The notes beneath the pieces were generated by a model. That model was not told the DNA's origin and did not search any database. It saw nothing but the letters and a program-made list of their open reading frames with translations. 21,782 nt of DNA from a virus. The stretch spans positions 1 to 21,782 of the IMG/VR virus record IMGVR_UViG_3300044633_001348; one strand, given 5' to 3'. A program made the position numbers and the translations under genes. Positions 4,565 to 18,207 of the stretch are shown here, piece by piece (position 1 is the first letter of the stretch; each line of letters starts with the position of its first letter).

Positions 4565-4807
4565 ATGGAGAGCAAACCTGTGGTCTATTTCACAAGTGCG
4601 GAAGCAGCAGAGAAACTTGGTTGCTGCGTCAAGACCGTGACGCGAGCAGCGCGGCGAGTGAATCGCGGCGTGTTCGTCCACGGTGGCAAGCGGCTGGCCG
4701 CGTTGGCGGCGGCTGACCTGACCGCGTTGCGGTCGGCGATCAACGACACGGTTGGCAATCCCGATTGGATCGCCGCCGCGAAGACGAAGAGCCGCAAGCG
4801 GGCTTGA
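4565..4807 (+). CDS. Small helix-turn-helix DNA-binding protein
   Basis: An 80-aa protein from the ATG at 4565, preceded by GAGGTG at good spacing; an earlier start at 4532 is possible but less well placed. Residues 9-31 (YFTSAEAAEKLGCCVKTV) look like a MerR/Xis-type HTH followed by a basic stretch and a short beta wing, then a helix and a basic tail (KTKSRKRA). It follows the other HTH gene by 49 bases and may be its partner or distant paralogue, for example a Cro-like regulator of the element that starts immediately after it. Function inferred from fold and place only. Confidence 0.65.
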   Translation: MESKPVVYFTSAEAAEKLGCCVKTVTRAARRVNRGVFVHGGKRLAALAAADLTALRSAINDTVGNPDWIAAAKTKSRKRA

Positions 4808-5046
4808 CCCCTGTTCCCTACTCTATGGGGATTTTTCACTAGGGCAAAAAGTTGTTCGCCGCGTCCCGGTTTTCGCGGCAGCGACGGCTAACGCTTTGCG
4901 GTGCAAGTGTTTAGACGCCCGTGAAAACGCCCGCGAAAATACTTCTAGCCGATACTTTTTCTGCGTGCTCCACTCATCGCGGACTTTTTGCCCCCCGTCC
5001 GTGTTGTAGGAGGCCCTTATATATAAAGGGATTTGACGCCCCGGCG
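4808..5046 (+). repeat. Long noncoding element, copy A
   Basis: A gene-free stretch that shares ordered blocks with copy B at 16306-16560. Shared blocks are 22 identical bases beginning TCCCTACTCTATGGGG (4815-4836) ending in five T, AAAAAGTTGTTCG, CGGTTTTC-x-CGGCA, GCGAAAA-type repeats with ACTT-x-TCT, CGCGGACTTTTT-x-CC, and GAGGCCC followed by TTATA and AAGGG just before the downstream gene. The first block, right after the upstream stop codon, may act as a weak terminator (CCCTA/TA-GGG with T tail). CCGCGAAAA-like boxes occur in both orientations. It could be an operator array, an origin, or a regulatory RNA; no open reading frame in it is convincing. Confidence 0.75.
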
Positions 5047-5301
5047 ATGATTGGCGGCATGGCACGCACGATCATCCACGTCAACCAGCACGTCGTGAGG
5101 AAGAACGGCAAGACCGGTTCCCGCGATCCCTGCTTGACCGTGAAGCAAGGGCGGAAGAACACCTACGCGACCGCTGCGGAGGTGCTTGGCCCGTGCCGGG
5201 TCGTCTACTCCCCCGACTGCCCGCTTTCCTGCGGGGCAAAAGTCTGGATTGAAACGGATTCCGAGGTGCGGCTGGAGGGCGTCGCCCCGCCCCCCGGCTA
5301 A
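5047..5301 (+). CDS. Small conserved-looking unknown protein
   Basis: An 84-aa protein (80 aa if the ATG at 5059 is used). The body has a KNGKTGSRDPCLTVKQG segment, RVVYSP and LSCGAKVWIETDSEVRL, which reads as a small beta-rich fold with three cysteines. No ribosome site is obvious for either ATG; AAAGGG lies 16 bases upstream of the first. It directly follows element A and so is the gene that element controls or borders. I do not recognise a family with a known function. Confidence 0.65.
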   Translation: MIGGMARTIIHVNQHVVRKNGKTGSRDPCLTVKQGRKNTYATAAEVLGPCRVVYSPDCPLSCGAKVWIETDSEVRLEGVAPPPG

Positions 5302-5319
5302 AAAGCCCTCGTTTCCCCC

Positions 5320-5383
5320 GCGAAAACCGCCCAAAAATAATTTTGGGTAAAGGTATTGACACACTCTGGACGAATGATAAAAT
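5320..5383 (+). promoter_or_regulatory. Promoter P1 (first of three matching modules)
   Basis: A -35 box TTGACA (5356-5361) and a -10 box TAAAAT (5378-5383) with 16 bases between, preceded by an A/T-rich UP-like stretch (AAAAATAATTTT) that here forms a CCCAAAA/TTTTGGG hairpin, and by the box GCGAAAACCGCCC (5320-5332). The spacer contains CTGGACGA, which recurs in P2 and P3 and may be an operator or activator site. It would start RNA near 5390 and drive the run of small genes from 5437 to 7704. Confidence 0.85.
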
Positions 5384-7704: not shown

Positions 7705-7706
7705 AA

Positions 7707-7784
7707 CCCCCAAAAACACCGGGGAAAACGGGGTAAAATTATTTTGAATAAACCAATTGACACGAAACGGACGATAGGTATAAT
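7707..7784 (+). promoter_or_regulatory. Promoter P2 (second module)
   Basis: TTGACA (7757-7762) and a perfect TATAAT (7779-7784), 16 bases apart, with ACGGACGATAGG in the spacer, an A/T-rich UP-like stretch (AAATTATTTTGAATAAA) directly upstream, and the box GGGGAAAACGGGG (7721-7733). A CCCC/GGGG hairpin precedes it (7707-7724). It drives the amidoligase and glutamine amidotransferase genes. This is the strongest-looking promoter of the three. Confidence 0.9.
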
Positions 7785-9635: not shown

Positions 9636-9661
9636 GGCAGTATACGCACCGGCACCGGCAA

Positions 9662-9740
9662 CCCCCAAAACACTGGGGGAAACGGCCCGAAAATAATTTT
9701 GAATAAACCTTTTGACACACACTGGACGATAGACTAAGAT
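9662..9740 (+). promoter_or_regulatory. Promoter P3 (third module)
   Basis: TTGACA (9712-9717) and TAAGAT (9735-9740), 17 bases apart, with CTGGACGATAG in the spacer, AAAATAATTTTGAATAAACC upstream (nearly the same as in P2), the box GGGGGAAACGGCCCG (9675-9689), and a CCCCC/GGGGG hairpin (9662-9679). It drives the genes from 9795 on, including the DUF932 gene. The -10 box is weaker than in P2. Confidence 0.85.
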
Positions 9741-13724: not shown

Positions 13725-14489
13725 ATGACTCCGACAAGTGAGATGATTACGGGTTCGGCTGGCAGCAAGTTTCTCGCGCTGCGGCCCGACTCCGACGTGC
13801 GTGAAGCACTGATGGCAAACCTTGGGCCGGGCGAGACGCTTCTGGCGTCCGACTTGCCACGGGTTTCGACGCCCGCCGCGGGCGGCAAGGTGTGGAGTTG
13901 GACGGACTCTGGCAACAACGAGCAGAGTGCCAAGTCCATCGACGGCATCCTCGTCTACTACGGTGTGCGTGGCACGCTGTGGGGCAGCGAGGAGCCGCAG
14001 GGCAAGGCGTCACCGGTGCTGGTGTCCTACGACCTCATGAACGCTGTGAGGGTCAACGAGGACATCGGCGACCTTGACGCAGAGGTGCTGGAGTCGTGCC
14101 GCACGGGCGACCGCACCTACGACTGGACTCGCCTGCCGTACAACCAGTACGGAACGAGCAAGTCCGGTCGCGGGAAGCGGTGCAAGGAGTCTCGCCTGCT
14201 GGCGATTCTCCGAGCCGACGAAGCGTGGCCGCTGCTGGTGACGGCTGGCCCCGGTTCGCTGAAGACCGTGACGCCATTCGTGAAGCGGCTCAGTGTGCCG
14301 CACTACCGGGCGGTCGTGAGCCTCACGCTCGACAAGGTGGAGAACGCGGGGGGCCAGCCCTACTCGCAGATCGTGCCGAAGTTTGTCGGCTCGATCACGA
14401 AGGAAGAAGGCGACATCGTGCGGAGGCTCTACACCGAGCCGCTGTCTCGCGTCGCCGCGCAACTCGACGTGCCGCAGGATGCGGCCTGA
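13725..14489 (+). CDS. Unnamed 254-aa phage replication-module protein
   Basis: From the ATG at 13725, with GAAAGGAAGTAAG upstream. The N-terminal half has strand-rich segments with GGKVWSWTD and DGILVYYGVRGTLWG, a middle loop with two cysteines and many Lys/Arg (NQYGTSKSGRGKRCKESRLL), and a C-terminal part with repeated strands (AVVSLTLDKVENAGGQPYSQ). Similar proteins sit in phage replication and recombination clusters. Position between the helicase and the primase would fit a single-stranded DNA-binding or annealing protein, but no motif proves it. The function is unknown. Confidence 0.7.
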   Translation: MTPTSEMITGSAGSKFLALRPDSDVREALMANLGPGETLLASDLPRVSTPAAGGKVWSWTDSGNNEQSAKSIDGILVYYGVRGTLWGSEEPQGKASPVLVSYDLMNAVRVNEDIGDLDAEVLESCRTGDRTYDWTRLPYNQYGTSKSGRGKRCKESRLLAILRADEAWPLLVTAGPGSLKTVTPFVKRLSVPHYRAVVSLTLDKVENAGGQPYSQIVPKFVGSITKEEGDIVRRLYTEPLSRVAAQLDVPQDAA

Positions 14490-14509
14490 GAACGGATGCT
14501 CGTCGGTTC

Positions 14510-14550
14510 GCCCCCGCGTCGCGTGGAGACGCGGCGCGGGGGCATCTTTT
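14510..14550 (+). terminator. Strong rho-independent terminator
   Basis: A 15-bp stem, GCCCCCGCGTCGCGT (14510-14524) and ACGCGGCGCGGGGGC (14529-14543), with one G-U pair and loop GGAG, followed by ATCTTTT. It lies in the 85-base spacer before the primase gene. No promoter is visible between it and the primase start, so it probably acts as an attenuator or is read through. Confidence 0.88.
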
Positions 14551-14574
14551 ACACACACGAAACACGGAGGCAGG

Positions 14575-16305
14575 ATGGATATGGCTACGCATCATGGGGT
14601 CGCCGCGCTCGCGGCGACATACGCCGCACGCGGCTGGAAGATCGTTCGGCTGTACGGTTCGCCGTCGCCGGGGGTTTGCACTTGCTGGAAGGGCCGGGAC
14701 TGCGGCACGCCGGGGAAGCACCCGCAGGGCGAAGCGTGGCACCTGAGTGCCACCGATGACGAGGAAACGGTGCTGTCGTGGTTTGAGGCGGGCACGCCGG
14801 TGAACATCGGCTTGCTGCTTGGCCCGGCATCCGGTGTCGTGGACGTTGAACTTGACGGCGACGATGCGAAGGCGGCGTGGGCTGCTCTTGGCCTTGGCGA
14901 AATCTGGACGCCGACTTACACGGCAGGCCGGGGGCCTCATCGGCTGTTCCGGTGGGACGAAGGATTGCCCGCCACGGCGGTGCGGAAGGTCAACGGCATC
15001 GAAGTGCGGATCGGCAACGGCGGCGCGGCGGCGCAGTCGGTCATTCCCCCGTCGGTTCATCACACCGGAAAAATCTACGAGTGGGTGCCGGGAATGAGTC
15101 CCGACGACGTGGAGTTGCAGCCGCTGCCTGAGAAGTTGGTCAACTTACTTTGGAACGACGACGGCACGGGGCAGCGGATCGGCACGGGGCGAAAGCCCGC
15201 TCGGGCGTTGCTGCACGAACCGGTGAAGGAAGGCGGCAGGAACGAGGAGGTGTATCGCTTCGCAGTCCGCGAGGCGTTTCGTTCGGGGCCAGACCTTGAC
15301 GACCAGACCGAGCAGCAGGATTTGCTGGCGAAGATTCGGATGCTCAACACGGTGCAGTGCAAGCCGCCGATGGCCGACGACGAAGTGGTGGCGATCTTCC
15401 GGTCGGCGATTGGGTACGTTCGCAAGACCCGTTCGGCTGGCATGGATCAAGCAGCGGCGATTGCTCACGCCGAGGCAACCAGTGCGAGGGAGTGTGCGAA
15501 ACTCAAGCCGATCAAGGCAGACGCGGCTAACAGCGGGGTGCGGCTGTTCACGGCAACCGGGCTGTCCTTCACCCCCATCGTGCCAGACGCTGACCCTGAG
15601 TGGGGGCCGGGCGAGTGGCGGCTGACGGTCGTGCACTCCGACCCGCTGGAGTACCGGCTGCACGTTCCGGCGTGGAAGCAGTGGACATCGAACGGCACGG
15701 GCAACATCTCGCTTTCGGTTGACCAGTACCGCAGTGCCACGAAGGTGGCGGCGGCGGTACTGAGTGCGACCGGCGTGGTGATGCTCGACAAAAAGCCGGG
15801 CGATTGGAAGCGGATTTGGGACGGCGGCTACAAAGTCAAGAACAAGCAGGGCGACGCGACCGCCAAGACTCGAACCGCCGACGGAGTGAAGGCAAAACTT
15901 CTCGACAACGTGGAACACGAATGGCCGGGAGCAAGTAGCCTGCGGTACGTGCTTCTGGCCTCATGGCTCTATGACCGGCTGGCGCAGGCATCCCAGCCGT
16001 CGGACGATGACTTGCCCGACCCGACCGGGCGGGCGGCGTGGCGGCAGGACGGGACGCTCTGGTTCGGCTGGGGCAAAGTTTGGGAGGACATCGAGCGGCA
16101 GCACCGCGTCAACGACGGCGAGAGGCTTGCCCTCAAAAGGCGTCTATTAGCCCGTCTGGAGGGCGAGAAGGATTTCCGGCACACGGAACACAGGCACCTC
16201 GGCGGTGCCCGCAAATCGTACGTGGTGTGGACGCAGCGGGAGTTCGCGGTGCTGGAGGAGATTGCGACGATGGATGCCACGCCGCCGCAGGGGGCCGACG
16301 CCTGA
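14575..16305 (+). CDS. Bifunctional DNA primase/polymerase (prim-pol) with PriCT-like region
   Basis: A 576-aa protein. The N-terminal 195 residues match the prim-pol domain: ATYAARGWKIVRLYG (14-28), a Cys/His-containing GTPGKHPQG, WHLSATDDEETVLSWF (55-70), NIGLLLGPASGVVDVELD (77-94) with the metal-binding Asp90-x-Glu92, RGPHRLFR (119-126) with the conserved His, and QSVIPPSVHHTGKIYEW (154-170). Residues 220-283 (RNEEVYRFAVREAF to FRSAIGYVRK) match the primase C-terminal 1 domain. About 290 further residues form a region I cannot name. It would make primers and perhaps extend them during phage replication. ATG at 14575 or 14581; GGAGG is 4 or 10 bases upstream. Confidence 0.9.
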   Translation: MDMATHHGVAALAATYAARGWKIVRLYGSPSPGVCTCWKGRDCGTPGKHPQGEAWHLSATDDEETVLSWFEAGTPVNIGLLLGPASGVVDVELDGDDAKAAWAALGLGEIWTPTYTAGRGPHRLFRWDEGLPATAVRKVNGIEVRIGNGGAAAQSVIPPSVHHTGKIYEWVPGMSPDDVELQPLPEKLVNLLWNDDGTGQRIGTGRKPARALLHEPVKEGGRNEEVYRFAVREAFRSGPDLDDQTEQQDLLAKIRMLNTVQCKPPMADDEVVAIFRSAIGYVRKTRSAGMDQAAAIAHAEATSARECAKLKPIKADAANSGVRLFTATGLSFTPIVPDADPEWGPGEWRLTVVHSDPLEYRLHVPAWKQWTSNGTGNISLSVDQYRSATKVAAAVLSATGVVMLDKKPGDWKRIWDGGYKVKNKQGDATAKTRTADGVKAKLLDNVEHEWPGASSLRYVLLASWLYDRLAQASQPSDDDLPDPTGRAAWRQDGTLWFGWGKVWEDIERQHRVNDGERLALKRRLLARLEGEKDFRHTEHRHLGGARKSYVVWTQREFAVLEEIATMDATPPQGADA

Positions 16306-16560
16306 TCCCTACTCTATGGGGATTTTTATCATGCCTAAAAAGTTGTTCGGAGCCGCTCGGTTTTCCCGGCAAGGTGCGATCCGTGCTTGTTTTTACGTGG
16401 TGAAACGTGCCGCGAAAACCGCCGCGAAAACTTTTCTGCAAGAGGGTGTTTTCTCGAATCGTCGTCAAACGGTGGGTCGGAGTGCCCGTGTTACGGATCA
16501 ACGCGGACTTTTTACCGGCGTCGGAGTTTTTCTGAGGCCCAATTATAAGAAGGGTGTTTC
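16306..16560 (+). repeat. Long noncoding element, copy B
   Basis: A gene-free stretch that begins at the base after the primase stop codon and ends at the GTG of the next gene. It keeps the same blocks in the same order as copy A (4808-5046): the 22 identical bases at 16306-16327, AAAAAGTTGTTCG, CGGTTTTC-x-CGGCA, two CCGCGAAAAC-type repeats (near 16410-16430), CGCGGACTTTTT-x-CC, GAGGCCC and TTATA with AAGGG. It is 16 bases longer than copy A and diverged between blocks. A short plus-strand frame crosses it but has no ribosome site or recognisable product. Confidence 0.75.
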
Positions 16561-18207
16561 GTGCAAATCGCCAGACTGATCGGTGCCGCCGGGAGCGGCA
16601 AGACAACCGAGTTGCTGAACATCATGGAGGCGGCGTTGCCCAAACTGGGGAACGACCCGCTGCGGCTGGGCTTCGCATCGTTCACCCGCGCGGCCCGTGC
16701 CGAGGCGGTGAGCCGGGCGGCAGCGGCGTGGGGAGTTCCGCACACCCTGCTCGACGGCGACGGCTGGTTCCGCACGGTTCACTCCACCGCGAAGCGGTGC
16801 CTCGACGTGGGGCAGGGCCAACTGATCGGCAGCAAGGCGGCCGACGTGGAGTGGATCAGCAACGCTCTCGGCGTGCGGGTCTCGACCAGCATTGACGAGG
16901 ACACCGGGCGGCAGAAGTTTGTCGGTGGTCAAGAGGGGGCGGCACTCAACGCGTGGGATCACGCCCGCAACACGCTCTTGCCGCTGGCCGAAGTGGTGCG
17001 GCGGGCGCGGCGGCTGGACGACGACGTGCCAGACTATGCCGCCGTTGTTCGGGTAGCCGAACGATACGAGATGGCGAAGCGTGTCGGCGACCGGCTCGAC
17101 TTCTCCGACCTCCTGCTCCGCTTCACCGGGCTACGCGTGGACACGACCGAAGGCGTGAGCCGCGTCGAACCGGAGGGCTACTTGCCGCCGGTATCGGCGT
17201 GGCTGTTTGACGAGCAGCAGGATGCCTCGCCGCTGCTCGACGCCGCCTGCAAGCGGCTGGTATCGGCACCGACGGTGCGGTGGTGCTACGTCGTGGGCGA
17301 TCCGTTCCAAGCGATATTTGGATTCGCCGGGAGCAGTGCCGAGTGCTTCCTTGGCTGGCCTGCGGAGAAGGAAAGGACAATGCCGAAATCGTACCGCTGC
17401 CCGAAGCCGATTTTGGAACTTGGCGAACGGTGCCTGCGGCGGATGCACAAGGGGTACTTCGACCGTCGCGTATCTCCTGCGGATCACGAAGGGCAAATCT
17501 TCGACACCGAGACAGAGGTGCCGCTGTCGCGGGCACGACCCGACGAGGATTGGCTGTTCATCGCCCGCTCGAACTTCGACGCGGGGCGGCTGCACGCTTC
17601 GCTCAGTGCGGCGGGCAAGCCGTCGCGGTGGGTCAAGCAGACAGACGGCTCGACGGTTCGCGGGCAGGGGCTTGCCGCGCTCTACGCGTTGGAGAAGGGC
17701 AAGCCGGTGAGCGGCGTTGCGTGGGGTCGTGCGATTGAGTTGCTGCCCACGATCAACAAGCACAAGGAGCCGATGCTGTCTCGCGGCATCAAGACCGGAT
17801 GGGCGAGGCAGCACGCCAGCAAGATGGACGTGGTGTTTCCGAACGAGTTGGAGAAGGTCGGCGCGACCGCACCTTTGATCGCCAGCATCCGCAGCGGTGC
17901 GTGGTGCGGGCTGGTGGATCGTGCGGAAGGCTGGCGGCGGCACGCTGAACTGTGGGGCGAGGAACTGGCGTCCAACTCCCGCATCCGCGTGGGCACGATT
18001 CATTCGGTCAAAGGGATGGAGGCCGACAACGTGGCCTTGCTTACGACGGTTGCCAAGCGTGTAGAGCAGGGCCGCGATGACTGCCCCGCACAACATGACG
18101 AGGAGTGCCGGGTGGCCTACGTCGGCGTGACGCGGGCACGGCGGAATCTGTACATCGTCAACGAGGGGCGGCACGGCAAGCCGGTGCCCCGCATGGAGGT
18201 ACTGTGA
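16561..18207 (+). CDS. UvrD/Rep-like superfamily 1A helicase
   Basis: A 548-aa protein from the GTG at 16561, with AAGAAGGGTG just upstream. Motifs: Walker A GAAGSGKT (8-15), motif Ia FASFTRAARAEA (39-50), DEQQD (217-221), GDPFQAIFGFAGS (from 246), YRCP (motif IV), TIHSVKG (479-485) and VGVTRARR (521-528). These are the full SF1A set for ATP-driven 3'-to-5' unwinding. It is shorter than bacterial UvrD (about 720 aa), mainly because the 1B/2B insertions are reduced. It would unwind DNA in replication or recombination. It is the first gene after element B and couples by TGATG to the nuclease-like gene. Confidence 0.93.
   Translation: MQIARLIGAAGSGKTTELLNIMEAALPKLGNDPLRLGFASFTRAARAEAVSRAAAAWGVPHTLLDGDGWFRTVHSTAKRCLDVGQGQLIGSKAADVEWISNALGVRVSTSIDEDTGRQKFVGGQEGAALNAWDHARNTLLPLAEVVRRARRLDDDVPDYAAVVRVAERYEMAKRVGDRLDFSDLLLRFTGLRVDTTEGVSRVEPEGYLPPVSAWLFDEQQDASPLLDAACKRLVSAPTVRWCYVVGDPFQAIFGFAGSSAECFLGWPAEKERTMPKSYRCPKPILELGERCLRRMHKGYFDRRVSPADHEGQIFDTETEVPLSRARPDEDWLFIARSNFDAGRLHASLSAAGKPSRWVKQTDGSTVRGQGLAALYALEKGKPVSGVAWGRAIELLPTINKHKEPMLSRGIKTGWARQHASKMDVVFPNELEKVGATAPLIASIRSGAWCGLVDRAEGWRRHAELWGEELASNSRIRVGTIHSVKGMEADNVALLTTVAKRVEQGRDDCPAQHDEECRVAYVGVTRARRNLYIVNEGRHGKPVPRMEVL

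Follow-up and report, generated by a model that had tools for sequence, protein, structure and literature searches.

Phage P4 has two separate cis-acting sites, ori and crr, which contain related repeats and are used by a primase-type initiator, the alpha protein, in which primase and helicase are fused. Phage HK022 carries two similar put RNA antiterminator elements, located in the same sense at the starts of operons. Replication of the crenarchaeal plasmid pRN1 requires a stem-loop of about 100 nt that begins 54 bp behind the Prim-Pol gene; this stem-loop works when moved and needs the symmetry of its stem, its structure is conserved although its sequence is not, and the authors of that study propose the same arrangement for some phages (PMC4234260). 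Repeats are also found directly downstream of the initiator gene in the SaPI origins and in the Cch2 site of SCCmec (PMC7581432). Our literature searches turned up no account of a replication origin in a planctomycete phage.

The window, which is the entire 21,782-nucleotide stretch of viral DNA analysed here (IMG/VR record IMGVR_UViG_3300044633_001348), contains two related noncoding elements, A and B. The elements, their parts and the genes next to them are as follows.

4565..4807, + strand: HTH (HTH_17-like) gene, which precedes A
4808..5046, + strand: element A, the second copy, between the HTH gene and the gene at 5059
4816..4836, + strand: A box1, CCC-TACTCTAT-GGGGATTTTT (family consensus CCCTnnTATATAGGGA)
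4846..4858, + strand: A AAAAAGTTGTTCG block, within which AAAAAGT can pair with box5
4867..4880, + strand: left arm of the A dyad (P1)
4881..4916, + strand: centre of the A dyad, CTAAC...TTGCGGTGCAA...GTTTAG
4917..4930, + strand: right arm of the A dyad (P1')
4932..4951, + strand: extra arm-motif copies of A, direct then inverted (P3)
4978..4989, + strand: A box5, CGCGGACTTTTT
5013..5030, + strand: A box6, GCCCTTATATATAAAGGG
14383..16305, + strand: Prim-Pol gene (Prim-Pol, a weak PriCT_1 and a predicted C-terminal winged helix; the real start may be downstream)
16306..16560, + strand: element B, the copy between the Prim-Pol and helicase genes
16307..16327, + strand: B box1, same sequence as A box1
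16337..16349, + strand: B AAAAAGTTGTTCG block
16358..16371, + strand: left arm of the B dyad (P1), starting 52 nt past the Prim-Pol stop codon
16372..16407, + strand: centre of the B dyad, with its loop in both orientations among relatives
16408..16421, + strand: right arm of the B dyad (P1')
16423..16442, + strand: third (direct) arm-motif copy of B and the remnant of an inverted copy
16502..16513, + strand: B box5, CGCGGACTTTTT
16537..16554, + strand: B box6, GCCCAATTATAAGAAGGG
16561..18207, + strand: UvrD/SF1-type helicase gene

The likeness of A and B is extensive. They are identical over 22 nt (TCCCTACTCTATGGGGATTTTT, starting at 4815 in A and at 16306 in B), have a 75-nt ungapped block in common that is 80% identical (BLAST E 6e-14), and share further blocks in the same order, namely AAAAAGTTGTTCG, CGGTTTTCsCGGCA, two copies of a CGCGAAAA-type motif, CGCGGACTTTTT, and GAGGCCC...AAGGG. 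Their local alignment scores 73, compared with 23 or less for random windows from the same contig (n=473). Element A is bounded by the TGA at 4805-4807 and, on its 3' side, by the next gene (ATG 5047 or 5059), and B by the TGA at 16303-16305 and the GTG at 16561. Integrase and HTH genes adjoin A, the integrase gene lying about 0.5 kb away, and the Prim-Pol and UvrD-type helicase genes flank B. A prior sequence-only reading of the window had described ordered blocks with an identical 22-nt start, elements running from a stop codon to the next gene start, and the placement of one by lysogeny genes and of the other in a replication module; the alignments and coordinates bear this description out.

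A conserved peptide, one of the findings that the same reading had named as refuting it, is rejected for both elements. The A frame contains stops, as do many of the B copies in frame, and the core varies from 85 to 87 nt in length across the phages, so that reading frames break. Where the B frame is open, differences at codon positions 1/2/3 number 2/9/5 between the window and locus L004 and 13/15/16 between the window and L005, with no third-position excess, in contrast to the helicase gene (4/1/12 and 26/18/72, respectively), where such an excess is clear.

The core of each element is an imperfect dyad of about 64 bp, accompanied by extra copies of the arm motif and flanked by CCC-TATATA-GGG boxes. 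The order from 5' to 3' is box1 (of the CCC-TATATA-GGGA type), an A-rich block with TTCG, the dyad, arm-motif copies 3 and 4, box5, and box6. The dyad arms are GGTTTTCCCGGCA and TGCCGGGAAAACC, with a second palindromic zone in the dyad centre, and to the right of the dyad there is a third arm-motif copy in direct orientation and often a fourth that is inverted. Box5 is CGTGGACTTTTTG, box6 (GCCC-TATATA-AAGGG) follows about 28 nt after it, and in what are GC-rich genomes the TATATA-GGG boxes hardly occur outside these elements. A-type dyad centres have the form CTAAC..TTGCGGCGCAA..GTTTAG, and the B elements of distant relatives have a related AAGT...ACTT centre. In several A copies inspection by eye shows a possible long-range pairing between box2 and box5, which would form an outer helix (P0). 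The B loop is present in both orientations among relatives (CTTGTTTTTACG and CGTAAAAACAAG; CTTGTTTTTCAG and CTGAAAAACAAG), and the orientation, called by eye, changes at least five times on the helicase tree. The B loops of L006 and the window are exact reverse complements, as are those of L028 and L025. Box1 resembles a T7-type start, and a promoter for a single-subunit RNA polymerase was considered and set aside. None of 17 records had an RNA_pol match, but since the controls gave no signal either, this is weak evidence.

Using the helicase gene downstream of B as a query, 41 related viral loci were fetched, and a homologous element is found at the Prim-Pol/helicase junction in nearly all of them; in all, such an element occupies this junction in 37 related phage records. 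As suggested in the sequence-only reading, a covariance model was used; this model, R1, was built from 31 copies, with the window's A included and all other second copies left outside. It matches 37 of the 37 records, the B copies by construction, and gives a second match in about 19, on the same strand and 9-14 kb from the first; apart from the window's A these are independent finds. Over a range of 26-96% identity to the Prim-Pol of the window, phage Prim-Pol genes have element B directly behind them, and in the A-bearing phages examined A is preceded by the same small HTH gene. Four genomes (G007, G011, G031 and G033) contain the HTH gene with no A element behind it, which together with the R1 results identifies B as the general site and A as one limited to some lineages, and there are at least three changes of state in the presence of A on the helicase tree. 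B is probably the primary site, and A a second copy found only in some lineages. This conservation in dozens of phages supports the proposal that the elements are a selected noncoding unit. In L042, L043, L111 and L118 (upstream of 10001) the Prim-Pol frame runs through box1 and the left dyad arm, such that gene and element overlap. The source is a probable planctomycete phage, and the sole host clue found, which links the family to Planctomycetes, is L103 (33,863 bases, from a Planctomycetaceae MAG), which has the same size and match range as a viral IMG/VR contig (L103/L110).

Two same-sense copies at operon starts are what would be expected of a structured RNA leader acting in cis, such as a put-like antiterminator or another phage RNA. 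The stem is conserved, with 61 cells changed on both sides as against 33.6 in shuffled alignments (0 of 500 shuffles), and the possible box2/box5 pairing would also suit an RNA. However, it is the Watson-Crick pairs that exceed shuffles (435 vs 396 in P1, 199 vs 148 in P2), and G.U pairs are enriched in none of the helices (22 vs a shuffle mean of 27.7 in P1, 43 vs 46.9 in P2, and 7 vs 11.4 in P3), being about equal in number to A.C in P1. Moreover, the folding energies of the elements are no better than those of shuffles (z of -1.0 and -0.2), an Rfam search returned 0 matches above the gathering threshold, the loop is found in both orientations, and direct repeats replace the hairpin in at least one distant relative (L103). 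The excess of Watson-Crick pairs without enrichment of G.U favours a DNA palindrome, either a protein site or a cruciform, over an RNA helix, and the two loop orientations are as when DNA between inverted repeats flips. These patterns favour an element that would act as DNA, and we consider an RNA leader improbable.

The two copies within a phage are not independent throughout. Among 15 two-copy phages, the left block (box1 to P1) of A has a similarity of 0.75 to its own B, compared with 0.63 to other B elements and 0.64 to other A elements, an own-pair excess with a permutation p of 0.0002; the dyad centre has no own-pair effect in the same 15 phages. Either gene conversion or a phage-specific factor common to both copies would account for this concerted evolution of the left block. 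The sequence-only reading had held that the pair is not a recent duplication, which stands insofar as the pair is old, but needs amendment for the left block, which evolves in concert within each phage.

A phage-specific left block that is matched between A and B is also as expected for a shared regulator, and the main rival to an origin is that A and B are shared operator/promoter regions, in which a phage regulator (e.g. the HTH protein next to A) would bind the dyad and repeats and co-regulate two operons, the early one after A and that of the helicase after B, with box5 and box6 as the promoter. Both elements are at operon starts in the direction of transcription, the HTH gene is ahead of A in the A-bearing phages, and the spacing of about 28 nt between box5 and box6 is kept, the pair turning up once more in G001, at a third place that lacks the dyad. 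Nonetheless, the HTH gene persists without A in the four genomes named above, no -35 motif fits the boxes (by eye) and sigma70-like promoters are available nearby, and the association of the dyad element with Prim-Pol holds in phages lacking A as well. We regard a shared operator as possible but on the unlikely side.

The third place in G001 is at ~53621 (in the B-forward orientation; locus L156 is the first 20 kb of this contig on the other strand), where the 3' end of an HNH gene lies close to the end of the contig. The box5 at this site is coding, as part of the HNH gene, and G005 has a lineage-matched box5-like HNH tail. The box5-box6 module may be a separate promoter-like part that falls outside the origin explanation. 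The match to the HNH gene end and the absence of A from some lineages could also point to a repeat that is mobile or parasitic, either of MITE type or a trace of an HNH homing gene, and that serves no function for the phage. Against this, B keeps its place between one and the same pair of genes across deep divergence, and there are two copies rather than a scatter; we consider this reading very improbable. Attachment, partition or packaging sites are brought to mind by the integrase gene about 0.5 kb from A, but with two copies, one of them fixed in the replication module behind Prim-Pol, we find a role of this kind similarly hard to credit.

The window contains other repeats as well. At six gene junctions (5633, 5988, 6265, 8705, 10105 and 13683) the TGA stop codon is the exact starting point of the motif tGATTGTTCGG(cTACCCAAc), and in three of the six a GC hairpin and a ribosome-binding site come next. 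Three 73-nt repeats (5304-5376, 7705-7777 and 9660-9732) resemble promoters of the sigma70 type whose upstream part is AT-rich; ACGCGGCGGACACCGCG follows each of the three, and several relatives have such a sigma70-like promoter directly behind A.

The gene in front of B encodes a protein with a Prim-Pol domain (Pfam Prim-Pol, E 9.7e-24), for which an AF2 model with 45 homologues has a mean pLDDT of 88. The best structural match of the catalytic domain is pRN1 ORF904 (Z 12.2, rmsd 3.6, 164 residues), with the Prim-Pol of phage NrS-1 next. In the AF2 models the C-terminus has the order of elements of a winged helix, and for the isolated C-terminal domain and for residues 458-580 winged-helix folds predominate among the leading structural matches, one of them TcpK bound to oriT, with weak Z scores of 4-6. 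There is no helicase domain within the Prim-Pol protein (SF3 is absent), and the UvrD-type helicase is a separate gene. Co-evolution of the arm motif with the C-terminal domain was not supported, the motif tracking this domain no more closely than other Prim-Pol regions (partial r -0.07); region 331-480 gave a partial r of 0.32 with a p of 0.012, uncorrected for several tests.

We propose that A and B are two copies of a putative Prim-Pol-dependent replication-initiation site, a reading to which we give about an even chance. As a cis-acting DNA site, each element would be a place at which phage replication starts: the palindromic core and extra arm motifs would be bound, probably by Prim-Pol via its C-terminal winged helix, the dyad would extrude or melt, Prim-Pol would synthesise primers on the strand thus exposed, and the helicase, whose gene lies just downstream of B, would then enter, with the CCC-TATATA-GGG boxes acting as easily melted or promoter-like accessory sites. 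The comparisons show the conserved anatomy, the DNA-type covariation, the position and the copy pairing, and the structure of the Prim-Pol domains is predicted; binding by Prim-Pol, melting and origin activity are inferred. In favour of an origin are the fixed location of B behind Prim-Pol, the paired copies, the Watson-Crick dyad, the TATATA-GGG boxes, the ORF904-like Prim-Pol, the lineage-specific repeats at the same junction in more distant relatives, and the precedents of pRN1, SaPI and SCCmec; against it, both copies are located exactly where a regulatory region would be, the arm motif does not track the C-terminal domain in particular, and the comparisons of repeat content given below for the window's own B and for three isolate phages also count against it. 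Cumulative GC skew, which had been put forward as a way of recognising an origin, shows a monotonic rise, with no switch at either element, and lends no support. Among the options listed in the sequence-only reading, paired origins are the best fit, a regulated promoter or operator comes in as the possibility weighed above, and a structured RNA is disfavoured. A more elaborate and rather unlikely form of the proposal, which we offer tentatively, is a two-site origin in temperate phages, where an initiator site behind Prim-Pol is paired with a co-evolving copy at the lysogeny control region and where initiation, or co-binding by Prim-Pol, would couple the lysogeny switch to replication, combining a P4-like ori/crr pair with a pRN1-like dyad.

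More distant Prim-Pol/helicase pairs (~26-48% identity) keep a noncoding element at the junction with different repeats. These are lineage-specific and both direct and inverted, e.g. GCGGTAAGTGCGGTAATCGCGGTA in L103, three copies of TGTGGTTTT in L106, and GTGTGCGCG in L134; direct-repeat arrays are clear in L103, L106, L124 and L134, whereas the window's B has only two direct copies. By k-mer repeats many distant junctions are repeat-rich relative to dinucleotide shuffles; the enrichment is much weaker relative to real windows of their own contigs, where 14 of 28 distant junctions fall in the top 5%. In the window's clade the effect relative to real windows is modest and mainly due to inverted repeats, and the repeat content of the window's own B is unexceptional, the same level being reached by 13% of the contig's other windows. 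The isolate phages Sucellus, C7 and Opt-169, which have distant Prim-Pols, contain no comparable repeats behind the Prim-Pol gene.

If A and B are initiation sites, the idea that a stem-loop behind Prim-Pol is an origin would extend from archaeal plasmids to widespread phages in which Prim-Pol and helicase are separate proteins, would provide a defined sequence of about 90 bp to clone and test, and would raise the question of why one phage group keeps a second copy at its lysogeny region.

Several patterns emerge from comparison with the known systems. First, the layout of B is like that of pRN1, with a dyad 52 nt behind Prim-Pol (54 bp in pRN1), pairing that is kept as sequence diverges, and a catalytic domain closest in structure to ORF904; a C-terminal winged helix is predicted, with structural matches at weak Z. 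It differs in that a separate UvrD-type helicase gene follows B in place of a fused SF3 helicase, in that one group has two copies per genome, and in the presence of additional motif copies, TATATA boxes and a dsDNA phage context; because the fused SF3 helicase is absent, we do not class B as a pRN1-family origin despite the similar layout. Secondly, short repeats directly downstream of an initiator gene are shared with SaPI and SCCmec, although here they are lineage-specific, the SaPI and SCCmec initiators are helicases, and the window's clade has mainly a dyad with few motif copies. Thirdly, A and B are two separate sites as are ori and crr of P4, whose initiator, unlike Prim-Pol, is fused to a helicase. 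Finally, A and B resemble the put elements of HK022 in being in the same sense at operon starts, but the covariation in the dyad is not of the RNA type.
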